This document shows positions 28,280-33,640 of a stretch of 64,000 bases of DNA, one piece after another (position 1 is the stretch's first letter; each line of letters starts with the position of its first letter). Source of the DNA: Coprococcus comes ATCC 27758 (GTDB lineage: Bacteria > Bacillota > Clostridia > Lachnospirales > Lachnospiraceae); the NCBI RefSeq assembly GCF_025149785.1, contig NZ_CP102277.1:806001-870000 (forward strand). The letters are read 5' to 3'. Position numbers and translations under genes: made by a program. Below the pieces are notes generated by a model. That model was not told the DNA's origin and did not search any database. It saw only the letters and a program-made list of their open reading frames with translations.

Positions 28280-28405
28280 ATTAGTGCGGTAAAATCCGTT
28301 TTTTAAGGGCGATATAAGATATGAAAAGAGCAGACAGTTACCAGTCTGACTGTGATTTTCAAGTTTTATATATATCAATTACCAATAACGAGGAGGAATT
28401 GTAAA

Positions 28406-31042
28406 ATGGCAACAAAATGGGTTTACATGTTTACAGAAGGTAATGCCGATATGAGAAACCTGCTTGGTGGAAAAGGCGCTAACCTTGCTGAAATGACAAA
28501 CTTAGGTCTTCCAGTGCCACAGGGCTTCACAATCACAACAGAAGCTTGTACTCAGTATTATGAGGACGGAAGACAGATCAATGAAGAAATCATGGCTCAG
28601 ATCATGGAAGCTATTACAAAGATGGAAGGAATCACAGGAAAGAAATTCGGTGATAAAGAGAATCCACTTCTTGTTTCCGTTCGTTCTGGTGCAAGAGCAT
28701 CTATGCCTGGTATGATGGATACAATCCTGAACCTTGGTCTTAACGAAGACGTTGTCAATGTACTTGCTGAAAAATCAGGCAACCCACGTTGGGCTTGGGA
28801 CTGCTACAGAAGATTTATTCAGATGTACTCTGACGTAGTTATGGAAGTAGGTAAAAAATACTTCGAAGAACTGATCGACAAGATGAAAGCTGAAAGAGGC
28901 GTTAAACAGGACGTTGAACTTACAGCAGAAGATCTTCACGAATTAGCTAACCAGTTCAAGGCAGAATATAAAGAAAAAATCGGTGCTGAATTCCCGACAG
29001 ATCCAAAGGAACAGTTAATGGGAGCTATCAAAGCCGTATTCCGTTCATGGGACAACCCGAGAGCAAATGTATACCGTCGTGACAACGATATCCCGTATTC
29101 ATGGGGAACTGCTGTTAACGTACAGATGATGGCATTTGGTAACATGGGTGATGACTGTGGTACAGGTGTTGCATTTACACGTGACCCAGCTACAGGAAAT
29201 AACGGACTGTTCGGAGAATTCCTTACAAATGCTCAGGGAGAAGACGTAGTTGCAGGTGTTCGTACACCAATGCACATTTCAGAAATGGAACAGAAATTCC
29301 CAGAAGCATTCAAACAGTTCAAAGAAGTATGCAAGACTCTGGAAACACATTACAGAGATATGCAGGATATGGAGTTTACTGTAGAACATGGTAAACTGTA
29401 CATGCTTCAGACACGTAATGGTAAGAGAACAGCTCAGGCTGCTCTTAAGATTGCTTGCGATCTCGTTGATGAAGGAATGAGAACCGAAGAAGAAGCAGTT
29501 GCTATGATCGATCCTCGTAACCTTGATACACTGCTTCATCCACAGTTCGATGCAGCTGCACTGAAAGCTGCTGTACCGATGGCTAAAGCACTTGGAGCAT
29601 CTCCAGGAGCTGCTTGTGGTAAGATCGTCTTCACAGCTGATGATGCTGTAGAATGGGCTGCAAGAGGAGAAAAAGTTGTTCTTGTACGTCTTGAAACATC
29701 ACCGGAAGATATCACAGGTATGAAGTCTGCTCAGGGTATCCTGACAGTTCGTGGTGGTATGACATCACACGCAGCCGTTGTTGCACGTGGTATGGGAACA
29801 TGCTGTGTATCTGGTTGTGGTGACATCAACATGGATGAAGAAAACAAGAAATTCACACTTGGTGGAAAAGAATACCATGAAGGAGATGCAATCTCTCTTG
29901 ATGGATCTACAGGTAACATTTATGACGGAATCATCCCGACTGTAGACGCTACAATCGCAGGTGAATTCGGAAGAATCATGGGATGGGCTGACAAGTACAG
30001 AACTATGAAAGTTCGTACAAATGCTGATACACCAGCTGATGCTAAGAAAGCCCGCGAACTTGGTGCTGAAGGTATCGGACTTTGCCGTACAGAGCATATG
30101 TTCTTCGAAGGCAACAGAATTGATGCATTCCGTGAAATGATCTGCTCTGAAACAGTAGAAGAAAGAGAAGCTGCACTTGCTAAGATCCTTCCGGAACAGC
30201 AGGGAGACTTCGAAAAACTTTATGAAGCACTGGAAGGAAATCCGGTTACTATCCGTTTCCTTGATCCACCGCTTCATGAATTCGTTCCAACAGAAGAAGA
30301 AGATATCAAGAAACTTGCTGATGCACAGGGCAAATCTGTTGACCAGATCAAAGCAATCATCAGCTCTCTGCACGAATTCAACCCAATGATGGGACATCGT
30401 GGATGCCGTCTTGCTGTAACTTATCCGGAAATCGCTAAGATGCAGACAAGCGCAGTTATCCGTGCTGCTATCAATGTTAAGAAAGCTCATCCGGATTGGA
30501 ATGTTAAACCGGAAATCATGATCCCGCTGGTTGGCGATATCAAAGAGCTTAAATATGTTAAGAAGTTTGTAGTAGAAACAGCTGACGCTGAAATCGCTGC
30601 TGCAGGAAGCGACCTTGAGTACGAAGTTGGTACAATGATCGAAATTCCTAGAGCTGCTCTTACAGCTGATGACATCGCAAAAGAAGCTGACTTCTTCTGC
30701 TTCGGTACAAACGACCTTACACAGATGACATACGGATTCTCACGTGATGATGCTGGTAAGTTCCTTGAAGCTTACTATGACGCTAAGATCTTCGAGAATG
30801 ATCCATTTGCTAAACTTGACCAGACAGGTGTTGGTAAACTTATGAAGATGGCTATCGAACTCGGAAAACCGGTTAATCCGAAACTTCACGTTGGTATCTG
30901 TGGAGAACATGGTGGAGATCCAAGCTCTGTAGAATTCTGCAACAGCATTGGTCTTGATTATGTATCTTGCTCACCATTCCGTGTACCGATCGCTCGTCTG
31001 GCTGCTGCTCAGGCTGCAATCGCTCAGAAGAATGCAAAATAA
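28406..31042 (+). CDS. ppdK: Pyruvate, phosphate dikinase
   Basis: Interconverts pyruvate, ATP and Pi with PEP, AMP and PPi; in Lachnospiraceae it usually takes part in PPi-linked glycolysis. 878 residues. N-terminal ATP-grasp (LLGGKGANLAEMT, VRSGARASMPGMMDT), swivelling domain with phospho-His455 in GGMTSHAAVVARGMG, and a C-terminal PEP/pyruvate barrel (GLCRTEHMF, FGTNDLTQMTYGFSRDD, GICGEHGGDP). ATG 28406 has AGGAGG nine bases upstream; 18 further open codons lie in the leader. Codon use is strongly biased like nifJ. Monocistronic. Confidence 0.98.
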   Translation: MATKWVYMFTEGNADMRNLLGGKGANLAEMTNLGLPVPQGFTITTEACTQYYEDGRQINEEIMAQIMEAITKMEGITGKKFGDKENPLLVSVRSGARASMPGMMDTILNLGLNEDVVNVLAEKSGNPRWAWDCYRRFIQMYSDVVMEVGKKYFEELIDKMKAERGVKQDVELTAEDLHELANQFKAEYKEKIGAEFPTDPKEQLMGAIKAVFRSWDNPRANVYRRDNDIPYSWGTAVNVQMMAFGNMGDDCGTGVAFTRDPATGNNGLFGEFLTNAQGEDVVAGVRTPMHISEMEQKFPEAFKQFKEVCKTLETHYRDMQDMEFTVEHGKLYMLQTRNGKRTAQAALKIACDLVDEGMRTEEEAVAMIDPRNLDTLLHPQFDAAALKAAVPMAKALGASPGAACGKIVFTADDAVEWAARGEKVVLVRLETSPEDITGMKSAQGILTVRGGMTSHAAVVARGMGTCCVSGCGDINMDEENKKFTLGGKEYHEGDAISLDGSTGNIYDGIIPTVDATIAGEFGRIMGWADKYRTMKVRTNADTPADAKKARELGAEGIGLCRTEHMFFEGNRIDAFREMICSETVEEREAALAKILPEQQGDFEKLYEALEGNPVTIRFLDPPLHEFVPTEEEDIKKLADAQGKSVDQIKAIISSLHEFNPMMGHRGCRLAVTYPEIAKMQTSAVIRAAINVKKAHPDWNVKPEIMIPLVGDIKELKYVKKFVVETADAEIAAAGSDLEYEVGTMIEIPRAALTADDIAKEADFFCFGTNDLTQMTYGFSRDDAGKFLEAYYDAKIFENDPFAKLDQTGVGKLMKMAIELGKPVNPKLHVGICGEHGGDPSSVEFCNSIGLDYVSCSPFRVPIARLAAAQAAIAQKNAK

Positions 31043-31078
31043 GCATATACAGATATTATAGCGAATAATGAATAATAG

Positions 31079-31122
31079 AATCCCCCTGATATCTATGAAA
31101 TGGATGTCAGGGGGATTTTTCT
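31079..31122 (+). terminator. Terminator after ppdK
   Basis: Stem atccccctgatatc... / ...gatgtcagggggat with TTTTT. Confidence 0.93.
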
Positions 31123-31383
31123 ATCGGGAAGATTTTTTCTGGTAAAGAATGCATTCCATGTTTCATGGAAACAAGTCAAAGTCTTTAATTTTAGGAGACT
31201 TTGATGATTGCTGTGGCAAGGAATATAATTTGCAGGGTGAGTTTTATTTTATATCGTTAAAATTTAAAAACATTAAATTTGCGCTAAAATAAAAAAATCA
31301 CTATTTTTTTTAAAATGTATATGATACAATGAACCAATTAAATCTGAAATATTCTTATAAAATCATTTTAGAAGAGCGTAAGA
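31123..31383. other. AT-rich non-coding lead-in to the 53-bp array
   Basis: Two small perfect hairpins occur: ttccatg-ttt-catggaa (31154-31170) and caaagtct / agactttg (from 31177 to about 31203). An extended -10-like TGATACAAT at 31322-31330, without a clear -35, could start a transcript running through the array into the downstream gene. No ORF was seen on either strand. Confidence 0.45.
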
Positions 31384-31910
31384 TGATTGCAAGTTATTAA
31401 AATCTAAAACAAATCAATAATAGTGGAAAGAAAAATTGATGATATTCTATGGAATAAGAAATAAATCAATTGTGATGAAGAAGAAAATTGATTGTAATCC
31501 ACAAATATCTAAAGTAAATCAATGGAAGCGACAGGAAATGTTGATCATATATCAAATGATTAAATCTTAGGTCAATGTAATTGGTGAAATAAATTGATTG
31601 TAAATCCAATAAATTAAAAACAAATCAAGAAGATTGTAGAAAAAGATTGACTGTAACTTTAAAAACTTGAAAATGAATCAAGGAAAAAACGAAAATAGAT
31701 TGACTGGAAAAGCTAAAACTTGAAAACAGATCAAGAAGACTCAGGAAATAGATTGACCGTATGTTTGAAGACTTAAAAATAGATCAAGAAGATCTTGAAA
31801 ATTGCTTGACTGGAATACAAAAATTAGAAAATAGATCAAGAAAATTCTGGAAATAACTTGACTGGAAAATTAGAAACACGAAAATAAATCAAAAAGAAAT
31901 AAAACGATAG
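31384..31910 (+). repeat. Degenerate tandem array with 53-bp period
   Basis: Nine units plus one decayed unit. TTGA cores start at 31436, 31488, 31541, 31594, 31647, 31700, 31753, 31806 and 31858. TCAA cores start at 31414, 31466, 31519, 31572, 31625, 31678, 31731, 31784, 31836 and 31889. Steps are 52-53 bp throughout, and TTGA to TCAA within a unit is 30-31 bp. The better units read aaatagATTGACTGgaa ... aaatagATCAAGAAGA, so both half-sites share AAATAGAT. Units close to the downstream gene are most alike. The period is not a multiple of three and no ORF crosses it. Function unknown; not a CRISPR. Confidence 0.9.
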
Positions 31911-31944
31911 ATAAAAAACAATTTCAAATAAAGGGGGATAGTCT

Positions 31945-32733
31945 ATGTATAAATTAAAAAATATGCTTCTCCAAGAGCAAAAACATTTGGAGAAAATCGT
32001 TATGCAAGCTAAAACTAACTTAAGTACAGAACCAGAAGGACACCTTAGAATTTCGATAGATCAAAATAAGCCACGTTATTATCAATGCATAAATGACAGC
32101 AAAGGAATTTACATTCCAAGAGATGAAAAAGAGTTGCCGAGACGTCTTGCACAAAAAGGTTATAATGAAGCGGTGATAAAAAAAGGGGAAACAAGGCTTA
32201 AACAAATAAAGAAAATAACAAAAAATTATTCGGATGATGAAATTGAGAAAATTTATACGTCTATGAATAAAGCGAGACAATTACTGGTAACTCCGATCGA
32301 ACCAACATGGGATCAGCTGCTTACAAAATGGTATGAAGAAGAATATCAGGGGAAAGAGTTCAAGGAGGGAACACCATTAATTCTTACTGAGAAGGGAGAA
32401 CGTGTCAGATCAAAGTCAGAGAAGATATTAGCAGATTATTTTTATAGAAAGAATATTCTTTACAAATATGAAAAGCCACTTCATCTGAAAGGGTATGGTA
32501 CCGTGTATCCAGATTTTACATTTTTGTCAAGAAAGACTTACCGGGAAATATATTGGGAACATGAAGGAATGATGGATAAACAGGATTATGCAAGAGCAGC
32601 TGTGCGAAAAATAGAATTGTATCAAATAAATCATATATATCCAGGCGATCGGTTGATTATATCTTTTGAGACAGAACAAAATGTATTGAATTCAAAGATA
32701 ATAGAGAATCTGATAGAAAAATATTTGATATAA
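31945..32733 (+). CDS. Putative PD-(D/E)XK-fold nuclease of unknown role
   Basis: 262 residues. The C-terminal half resembles a restriction-endonuclease-like core: SKSE (Glu159) at the end of the first helix, YEKPL (residues 175-179), PDFT (Asp190), and YWEHEG (Glu205), then D-x3-Y (Asp211, Tyr215) and a lysine-bearing helix (Lys222). The usual motif lysine after Glu205 is not in its canonical place. The N-terminal half (residues 1-110) is charged and helical, possibly coiled. AAGGGGG is about 10 bases before the ATG. Composition is more AT-rich than neighbours. The gene stands alone directly behind the 53-bp array, which suggests a functional link, but none is demonstrated. Confidence 0.75.
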   Translation: MYKLKNMLLQEQKHLEKIVMQAKTNLSTEPEGHLRISIDQNKPRYYQCINDSKGIYIPRDEKELPRRLAQKGYNEAVIKKGETRLKQIKKITKNYSDDEIEKIYTSMNKARQLLVTPIEPTWDQLLTKWYEEEYQGKEFKEGTPLILTEKGERVRSKSEKILADYFYRKNILYKYEKPLHLKGYGTVYPDFTFLSRKTYREIYWEHEGMMDKQDYARAAVRKIELYQINHIYPGDRLIISFETEQNVLNSKIIENLIEKYLI

Positions 32734-32892
32734 AAGGACTTATGATATAATTAGCTTGTTGGGGAGAAGGATACCCTGATGGAGAGATAGAGCTGTTTGG
32801 AAAAATCTTACACCGCGATGAACATTTGCTATACAAGTATGCAGAGAATGAAATGTTTAAAAAGAATAAAGTCTAGGACGGAGGAGAACTAC

Positions 32893-33426
32893 ATGGAATT
32901 AGTAAACGGAAGACCAACAGACACACAAGGCAGATTGGACAAGGAAATCCGCGTATATGACTTCCTTGATTCGCTTGGAGTCGTATACCAGAGAATCGAC
33001 CATGAAGCCGCAATGACAATGGAGGCATGCGAGGAAATCGACCGGACGCTGGAGGCGACGATCTGCAAGAATCTGCTTTTATGCAACCGACAGGAGACAC
33101 AGTTTTATTTACTGATGCTTCCGGGGGATAAGGTGTTTAAAACAAAGGATCTGTCAGCGCAGATTGGTTCGTCCAGACTTTCTTTTGCAAAAGTGGAGTA
33201 TATGGAACAATATCTGGACATCACGCCGGGATCTTTAAGTGTGCTTGGACTGATGAATGATAAGGACAGGATGGTACGGCTTCTGATCGATGAAGATGTG
33301 CTTACAGGAGAATATATAGGATGTCATCCATGCATCAATACATCGAGTCTCAGACTTCGGACAAAAGATCTGGTGGAGAAGATTATTCCGGCAATGGAAC
33401 ATGAGCCGACCATCGTGAAGCTGTAA
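32893..33426 (+). CDS. Prolyl-tRNA editing protein (YbaK/ProXp-ala type)
   Basis: 177-residue trans-editing deacylase of the YbaK domain family; such proteins hydrolyse mischarged Ala-tRNA-Pro. Marks are RPTDTQGRLDKEIRVYDFLD, ICKNLLLCNRQETQFYLL (conserved lysine), LPGDKVFKTKDL, and GCHPCINTSSLRL near the C-terminus. ATG 32893 with GGAGGAG eight bases upstream is preferred to an in-frame ATG at 32797 that gives an extension unlike the family. The 159 bases before it contain no other recognisable gene. Confidence 0.88.
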   Translation: MELVNGRPTDTQGRLDKEIRVYDFLDSLGVVYQRIDHEAAMTMEACEEIDRTLEATICKNLLLCNRQETQFYLLMLPGDKVFKTKDLSAQIGSSRLSFAKVEYMEQYLDITPGSLSVLGLMNDKDRMVRLLIDEDVLTGEYIGCHPCINTSSLRLRTKDLVEKIIPAMEHEPTIVKL

Positions 33427-33640
33427 ATCCGCCAGAAAATGAAAAGGGTAGCAGAAACAGCAATATAGAAACAGAAAGATTTTTGACAGTGCAAATATAA
33501 AAACTGGATAATGAAAAATATAACAAAATCTATATAAAAAACAAAATAAATTCATGCAAAATTCATACAAAAAAGAAAGAAACACCTTGACGAAAAGAAA
33601 GATTTCTCTTAAAATATGAAAGGTTGTGCAAAAGAAGAAC

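Follow-up and report, generated by a model that had tools for sequence, protein, structure and literature searches.

In the chromosome of Coprococcus comes ATCC 27758, a phased array of inverted half-sites with a period of about 53 bp stands directly ahead of a gene for a 262-amino-acid protein, which is predicted to be a PD-(D/E)XK/Vsr-like nuclease. The locus lies within a stretch of 64,000 nucleotides (contig NZ_CP102277.1, positions 806,001 to 870,000), hereafter called the window, and unless a locus is named, coordinates refer to it. Homologues of the gene carry comparable arrays whose periods are whole turns of the DNA helix and whose half-site sequences differ from locus to locus, and in some genomes arrays matching that of the nuclease are dispersed over the chromosome. 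We consider it about an even chance (a probability of roughly 0.5) that the array is a lattice of half-sites in double-stranded DNA, bound cooperatively by the nuclease encoded next to it, in a partnership resembling that of repetitive extragenic palindromic (REP) sequences and REP-associated tyrosine transposases (RAYT). More tentatively, the module may represent an undescribed class of element, in which a single-gene PD-(D/E)XK nuclease would act as a lattice on whole-turn inverted half-site arrays, maintaining and spreading them, with their sequence diversifying freely and their geometry conserved.

Geometry of the arrays and their linkage to the nuclease genes

The array and the gene in the window comprise the following features.

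31379..31413, no strand assigned: first array unit, degenerate (repeat family D2, reference copy 31379-31439)
31414..31892, no strand assigned: phased array with a period of 52-54 bp, made up of ten TCAA and nine TTGA half-sites that stand 30-31 bp (inner) and 22 bp (outer) apart
31945..32733, + strand: gene for the 262-amino-acid protein, with an ATG start and, by reading, a AAAGGGGGA-type ribosome-binding site ahead of it
31945..32349, + strand: N-terminal domain, residues ~1-135, predicted as a helix, a beta hairpin, a long helix and small helices
32353..32730, + strand: C-terminal PD-(D/E)XK/Vsr-like nuclease domain, residues 137-262, from the predicted fold and the invariant residues

The TTGA cores start at 31436, 31488, 31541, 31594, 31647, 31700, 31753, 31806 and 31858, and the TCAA cores at 31414, 31466, 31519, 31572, 31625, 31678, 31731, 31784, 31836 and 31889. 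They form nine complete consecutive TTGA-N-TCAA units in steps of 52-54 bp, with 30-31 bp from TTGA to TCAA and 22 bp from TCAA to the following TTGA, and the array stops 52 bp ahead of the gene. When the same stretch was resampled 2000 times under a first-order Markov model, the longest run produced by chance was a single unit. The nine units and the 53, 31 and 22 bp spacings reported in a first-pass annotation of the window are thus borne out by the half-site listing and the resampling. Tandem Repeats Finder (TRF) assigned a period of 53 to positions 31586-31897, with 105 and 106 as multiples, and detected no second array with a period above 20 bp anywhere in the window. The array was 74.5% AT, compared with 67.3% for the gene and 57.2% for the whole window; the AT-richness noted in the annotation therefore holds locally, but not in general, the 560 bp upstream of homologues being 55-76% AT. 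Likewise, its description of the sequence between the cores as largely unconserved fits the window array, but not many of the homologous arrays, which are far more homogeneous.

Genomes bearing homologues of the protein numbered 125 of 397 in the family, 52 of 295 in the order and 20 of 398 in the phylum. Fifteen of the 20 genomes found in the phylum search lay outside the order, and their matches were confined to one domain, either the C-terminal (13, mostly in larger frames) or the N-terminal (2). The protein set consisted of 176 distinct homologues spanning most of the profile, and the 163 with at least 400 bp of upstream sequence were used for the period test. Periods of 40-96 bp were scanned against a threshold of 5.52, the 99% level of 120 Markov resamplings; this null is small, and at least one of its values lies far beyond that level, the maximum being 19. 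Under this threshold, a periodic array was detected upstream of 125 of the 163 homologues, compared with 14 of 74 downstream. The first-pass annotation had tied the array to the gene and had named homologues lacking an upstream array as what would break the tie; 38 of the 163 showed none and 125 had one, and the link therefore stands.

As a control, we used 294 kb of DNA, taken from the window beyond the locus and from the outer parts of the homologue loci, in which just five arrays had a period of 40-96 bp and a TRF score of at least 120. By reading of their units, three of these five were of the same type: that in locus L071 sits directly before a second nuclease copy, that in L074 is a copy of an array found elsewhere in the same isolate (like that of L072), and that in L043 is a TTGAC-type array located 4.6 kb from its nuclease. 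In the L071 locus, from Lachnospiraceae bacterium RM5, two nuclease modules are separated by about 4.8 kb, and the second has a 54-bp array of its own.

Across the 15 loci of N-terminal-only or C-terminal-only relatives (13 of them C-terminal-only), TRF found no array with a period above 21 bp. Twelve of these loci exceeded the 5.52 periodicity level; their periods were scattered (30 to 105), the loci were taken whole and are mostly coding, and we take this signal to be coding periodicity. Two loci from other Bacillota, L180 and L182, carry the N-terminal domain as a stand-alone gene (open reading frames of 104 and 113 codons), possibly a second use of that domain; both also hold a frame read as nucleotidyltransferase-like, and neither has a TRF array with a period above 21 bp. 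Several genomes of genera g154 and g208 (e.g., G641, G520 and G551) contain at least eight homologues each, among them several divergent copies with no detectable array.

We then analyzed the periods themselves. Of the 125 significant arrays, 119 fell into classes of 51-54 bp (n = 81), 61-65 bp (n = 23), 72-75 bp (n = 11) and 83-85 bp (n = 4), and the other six had periods of 40, 42, 42, 45, 45 and 96. The class means were 52.9, 63.4, 73.8 and 84.3 bp. A line through the classes, fitted after the periods had been sorted into them, had a slope of 10.45 ± 0.10 bp and an intercept of 0.7 ± 0.6, and a periodogram of the unsorted periods peaked at 10.5-10.6 bp with a resultant of 0.87. The classes are 5, 6, 7 and 8 turns of B-DNA, and the helical phasing that the annotation had read from the window array alone reappears as quantised periods at 10.45 bp per class. 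The array of genome G282 (locus L113), with a TRF period of 71, lies 2.5 bp below seven turns. On the protein tree (176 rows, quick method), 18 class changes were needed, compared with 35.7 when the labels were shuffled, indicating that the period classes were reached more than once.

When we examined the spacing within units in 52 arrays, the arm-to-arm distance was about three turns (26-35 bp, centre to centre), and the outer distance was, by class, 19-28, 25-36 or 40-47 bp. Inner half-sites thus stand about three turns apart and neighbouring pairs about two, three or four, which gives units of five, six or seven turns, and rarely eight. Proteins placed on one face of a duplex would obey such a whole-turn rule, and we know of no reason for RNA to do so. 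Periods of five to eight turns, repeatedly reached, would document with unusual clarity how protein assembly along a single face of the DNA has evolved.

The predicted nuclease, half-site specificity and dispersed arrays

The gene is present in a single copy in the 3.37 Mb window genome. In all 176 homologues, residues R155, S156, K157, E159, E176, D190, E205, H206 and G208 were invariant. Among them, E159, D190 and E205 are putative catalytic residues; the usual K of the (D/E)XK motif is absent, H206 follows E205, and K157 is a further invariant position. A histidine after the second acidic residue is also a feature of Vsr-like enzymes. An AlphaFold2 model built with 35 homologues had a mean predicted local distance difference test (pLDDT) score of 91 and a predicted template modelling (pTM) score of 0.72. 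Foldseek searches of the PDB ranked BamHI, Bax1 and DrdV best, with E-values of 0.04 and above and probabilities up to 0.9, and returned no match at E 0.001. In VIA-align, the C-terminal domain matched I-Bth0305I (3r3p) with Z 8.6 and a root mean square deviation of 2.8 over 90 residues. Bax1 (Z 7.7), TnsA (Z 7.2) and Vsr (Z 6.6) were also listed, where a Z under 8 may mean a common arrangement only, together with unrelated rows of similar Z that are due to the helical N-terminal part.

Profile searches gave a comparable picture for the C-terminal domain: the PADLOC candidate PDC-S68 matched residues 137-260 (E 1.1e-26). Pfam and NCBIfam gave nothing above cut-off for the window protein, and a Pfam scan of 35 homologues yielded weak, scattered matches only. 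The N-terminal domain alone matched helical hairpins in a range of proteins unrelated to it, prefoldin, Rad50 and flagellar parts among them; with Z below 9, these matches were uninformative. A viral structure library returned three matches at E 0.001 or better, to phage proteins that are unnamed or uncharacterised. On the basis of the modelled fold, supported by Foldseek and VIA-align, we keep the nuclease call of the annotation and describe the protein as a predicted PD-(D/E)XK/Vsr-like nuclease, with the N-terminal domain as the candidate array-binding part.

An inverted-repeat score of at least 8 was reached by the unit consensuses of 28 of 73 arrays, compared with 1.1% of shuffled consensuses. 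The arms are nearly wholly different between genes, for example TTGACTC/GAGTCAA, TACGAATGA/TCATTCGTA, AATTACGTGT/ACACGTAATT and TACGCGCA/TGCGCGTA, with mirror symmetry and spacing kept. Motif and protein similarity were compared over 52 arrays, leaving out double-period consensuses and arms scoring below 6. Half-sites were alike only above about 55% protein identity, indicating that specificity changes fast, and the overall rank correlation was 0.06 (1326 pairs). Even paralogues within one genome have different arrays (L093 and L104 in G298; L090 and L109 in G229).

Dispersal was assessed in seven genomes, each searched with the bipartite site of its own nuclease array and, as a control, with the reversed pattern. 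The sample was not random: G180 and G312 were chosen because arrays had been noticed upstream as well as downstream of the gene, and G377 and G073 belong to one genus and have a common motif. Dispersed matching arrays were found in five of the seven genomes, a proportion that, because of the choice of G180 and G312, is not a frequency. Forward and control counts of own-motif sites were 41 and 1 in G282, 34 and 0 in G377, 44 and 0 in G073, 58 and 3 in G180, and 48 and 2 in G312. The motifs were specific to their genomes: that of G377 and G073 gave 0 sites in five other genomes, that of G180 and G312 gave 0-1 sites in five others (controls 0-2), and that of G229 gave 0 sites in three others.

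Among the stretches around the listed sites, 34 clusters had at least three half-sites; three are next to the cognate nuclease, and around the remaining 31 the fetched stretch contains no nuclease frame. Half-site spacings were rigid (31/40 bp in G282, 30/23 in G180, 30/34 in G377 and G073, and 27/25 in G312), nearly all within 1 bp, with exceptions in an irregular cluster in L261 and a different lattice in L244. Most clusters lie in intergenic gaps, often after the 3′ ends of genes, with frames called mechanically. Different arrays of one genome can be alike over hundreds of bases, as in L279 and L281 (74% over 551), partly through shared half-sites, and this likeness suggests that they may have been copied from a common source. 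The annotation had held that finding the array at unrelated loci that lack the gene would sever the link between the two. Such arrays do occur in five genomes, yet they share motif and period with the array of the cognate nuclease, so that the link is extended rather than broken.

Two further observations concern G282. In L244 (positions 1781-2093), the same half-site is set in another lattice, with steps of 31-32, 51 and 29 bp that are still near whole helical turns. On contig 1 (2.86 Mb), none of the 13 site clusters falls outside the stretch from 1.08 to 2.82 Mb.

Proposed mechanism, known systems and competing explanations

Under the proposal of a nuclease-bound lattice, the inverted half-sites would all face one side of the DNA helix, and the nuclease would assemble cooperatively along them, presumably through its N-terminal domain, each nuclease lineage having its own half-site sequence. 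The lattice would tether the nuclease, and nicking or cutting at the arrays followed by copying repair would amplify and homogenise them and occasionally spread them, which would explain their growth, homogenisation and spread. The result would be a nuclease gene often at one conserved chromosomal place, with its cognate array in front and, in some genomes, matching arrays dispersed elsewhere. Each locus and genome has a site sequence of its own, and the nuclease is what the loci have in common; from this we infer that the encoded nuclease binds the sites. The upstream position of the array suggests that the nuclease may also restrain its own expression. Pairs of nuclease and array with differing sites would provide DNA-binding nuclease modules that may be orthogonal to one another, and if the nuclease spreads the arrays, common gut bacteria would have solved the REP/RAYT problem a second time and in an unrelated way.

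REP sequences and bacterial interspersed mosaic elements (BIME) are described as dispersed alternating palindromes that flank genes, BIMEs being regularly spaced REPs in alternating orientation, and rayt genes as flanked by repeats on both sides (PMC2817692, PMC3116915). The likeness lies in an enzyme gene beside species-specific mirrored repeats, in enzyme and repeat sequences changing together, and in matching repeats scattered through the intergenic regions of a genome, here in the five genomes mentioned above. The module differs in its enzyme, which is predicted to be a PD-(D/E)XK/Vsr-like nuclease and not an IS200/IS605-type tyrosine transposase (Y1/HUH), and in its arms, which are short, mostly 5-11 nt, and set in a lattice of whole-turn periods, unlike the 20-40 bp palindromes given for REPs. 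Even at E up to 10, Pfam hmmscan of the window protein listed no transposase family. By analogy, the module would appear to work most like RAYT/REP/BIME pairs, yet it is not one of them, since enzyme class and two-sided flanking both differ.

Centromere-like repeats offer another comparison: the F plasmid sopC locus consists of twelve repeats of 43 bp, and SopB, which is encoded nearby, binds the inverted repeat that each of them contains (PMC9178275). The tandem units with inverted repeats are alike, 43 bp being about four helical turns; the nuclease domain, the chromosomal location, the several period classes and the dispersal in some genomes are unlike sopC/SopB. We also compared 25 neighbourhoods, namely the window and 24 of 26 loci starting 5 kb before the match, leaving out L044 (near-identical to L043) and L057 (truncated). 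The nuclease is the sole gene common to all of them, and no partner gene such as that for the ATPase ParA recurs, ParA not having been searched by name.

With I-Bth0305I, Vsr, TnsA and Bax1, the protein shares its modelled C-terminal fold, whereas identity is 9-16% over the aligned parts and the N-terminal part is different; the 25 neighbourhoods have no recurring partner gene of the intron, transposon or helicase kind. It also shares the C-terminal nuclease domain with the PADLOC candidates PDC-S68 and PDC-S69. The PDC-S68 models, in contrast, are about 1200 positions long and were matched at their C-terminal end only, so that the full-length architecture is different. Among the titles listed by searches of the open-access literature, several of them aimed at the systems compared here and with subscription papers and preprints mostly outside their scope, we found no description of a nuclease coupled to a helix-phased array.

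Several observations weigh against the proposed lattice and its spread. There are the 38 homologues with no detectable upstream array, and strongly supported branches of the protein tree alone force three to four changes per period class. G229 has a local array only (5 sites, control 0), with no dispersal. In the window genome, BLAST revealed no second such array, although a strongly diverged one could be missed, and the exact motif pattern occurs at seven sites, five inside the array and two stray (reversed control 0). G377 and G073 have five orthologous array places, the nuclease locus among them, with best flank matches 87-93% identical and array stretches about 70-80%, which indicates that movement is rare or old. 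Sharing is partial: L266 and the two L269 arrays of G377 had no partner among the G073 loci listed and compared, nor had L276, L278 and L281 of G073 among the G377 loci compared. One array is absent from the relative, and the corresponding place there is no clean empty site. Neither terminal repeats nor target-site duplications came to light, no search having been aimed at them. The bias toward upstream arrays also departs from the two-sided flanking of rayt genes.

The strongest alternative, although we regard it as unlikely, is that the array serves self-control: a many-site operator or sponge that represses the nuclease gene and holds its product in an inactive state. Were the array lost or occupied, the nuclease would be free to harm the cell or incoming DNA, so that the array would act as a DNA-based antidote or defence switch, and dispersed arrays would be extra sponges. 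The strong upstream bias, a minimal form with a single upstream array, the different arrays of paralogues in G298 and G229, and the likeness of the nuclease domain to the C-terminal part of the candidate defence proteins PDC-S68/S69 and of plasmid AAA/RecD-like/RecQ proteins would all fit. Against this, promoter-like sites around 69 arrays were only mildly enriched before them (11, compared with 5.9 expected) and after them (10, compared with 3.7), with 4 inside where 11.7 were expected. Outside the rplM-rpsI neighbourhood described below, no gene cluster recurs in more than five of the 25 loci, and one full-length relative was found in phage records and none in plasmid records. A role in chromosome organisation, with the arrays as centromere or nucleoid sites (cf. 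sopC) and the protein mainly an architectural binder, is improbable. Mostly intergenic dispersed arrays, five places kept in two species, the confinement of the 13 G282 clusters and a phasing that favours an extended nucleoprotein assembly speak for it. The putative catalytic residues, needless in a purely architectural protein, are nevertheless invariant throughout the homologues, no partner gene recurs beside the module, and two of the seven genomes have a single array only. We give a small chance to the reading that a different host protein binds the array while the nuclease merely travels along: half-sites differ from locus to locus and from genome to genome, and one genome's motif gave no sites or control-level counts in the others searched, so the binder must be locus-specific, and the nuclease is the only gene that the 25 neighbourhoods share.

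The first-pass annotation had also allowed for a guide-like or stem-forming RNA, and here the results leaned the other way. In such a system, the array transcript would be processed into 53-nt RNAs that inhibit the nuclease, as in type III toxin-antitoxin pairs, or guide it. Eubacterium rectale, a member of the same family as the window organism, has a pair of this kind. Its CptIN system has tandem repeats upstream of a nuclease gene; the type III toxin is a ribonuclease, ToxN being related to Kid, and the repeats fold as RNA pseudoknots (PMC4627078). The resemblance is one of layout only, with tandem repeats directly upstream of a nuclease gene, whereas our module has a PD-(D/E)XK-like fold, window units with no significant folding and DNA spacing in helical turns. 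No ToxN/CptN/TenpN-type toxin was present among the Pfam, NCBIfam and PADLOC matches at E up to 10. Both arms change together between species, as would suit an RNA. An RNA stem would, though, favour G-U over A-C mismatches. In 314 units of the 50 arrays with an arm score of at least 6, a count that includes a few misplaced arms, G-T (45) and A-C (37) mismatches were about equal, with 62 others. The fold z-scores of five window units ranged from -1.8 to +0.2, no significant gain over shuffles. A terminator scan found no terminator-like site on the + strand between the window array and the gene, Rfam gave no family at gathering score within 31000-33500, and dispersed arrays lie beside many unrelated genes. 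Helical-turn periods and the parity of G-T and A-C mismatches point to a double-stranded DNA lattice and not to a guide or antitoxin RNA, which we consider highly improbable. A CRISPR-like (clustered regularly interspaced short palindromic repeats) spacer array was rejected as a candidate, because many arrays consist of units that hardly differ along their whole length, the spacers being near-identical too, and no partner gene recurs.

Chromosomal setting

Upstream of the array, the window contains the following features.

28352-31042: upstream gene, read as ppdK (pyruvate, phosphate dikinase)
31072..31124, + strand: terminator-like inverted repeat (I1) after ppdK, with the array downstream of it; not recovered by a separate terminator scan
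31201..31229, + strand: promoter-like site TTGATG-17-TATAAT before the array, weak (14 such sites found, 9.1 expected)

In 18 of the 25 neighbourhoods, the module lies just downstream of genes read as rplM-rpsI, whereas in the window and its nearest relative it follows ppdK. At the end of rpsI in the window genome (L138, ~1230-1440), where most of the relatives examined hold the array and nuclease, there is instead a fragment read as integrase-like. G377 has an orphan array at the rpsI end, which is perhaps an insertion hotspot.

We also considered whether the module belongs to a mobile element of phages or plasmids. The viral_contigs set gave no confirmed relative in a pattern-based search, which can miss distant ones. 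A phage collection contained three matching records, one of which covers most of the protein and lies on an unannotated 4.2 kb scaffold. All nine matches in plasmid records were to the C-terminal half only, AAA/RecD-like/RecQ proteins being among them. With one near-full-length match in the phage collection and no full-length plasmid match, this origin was rejected. Right after the nuclease gene, positions 32740-32885 of the window hold a remnant frame, and in the relative L031 a frame of 106 codons occupies the corresponding position.

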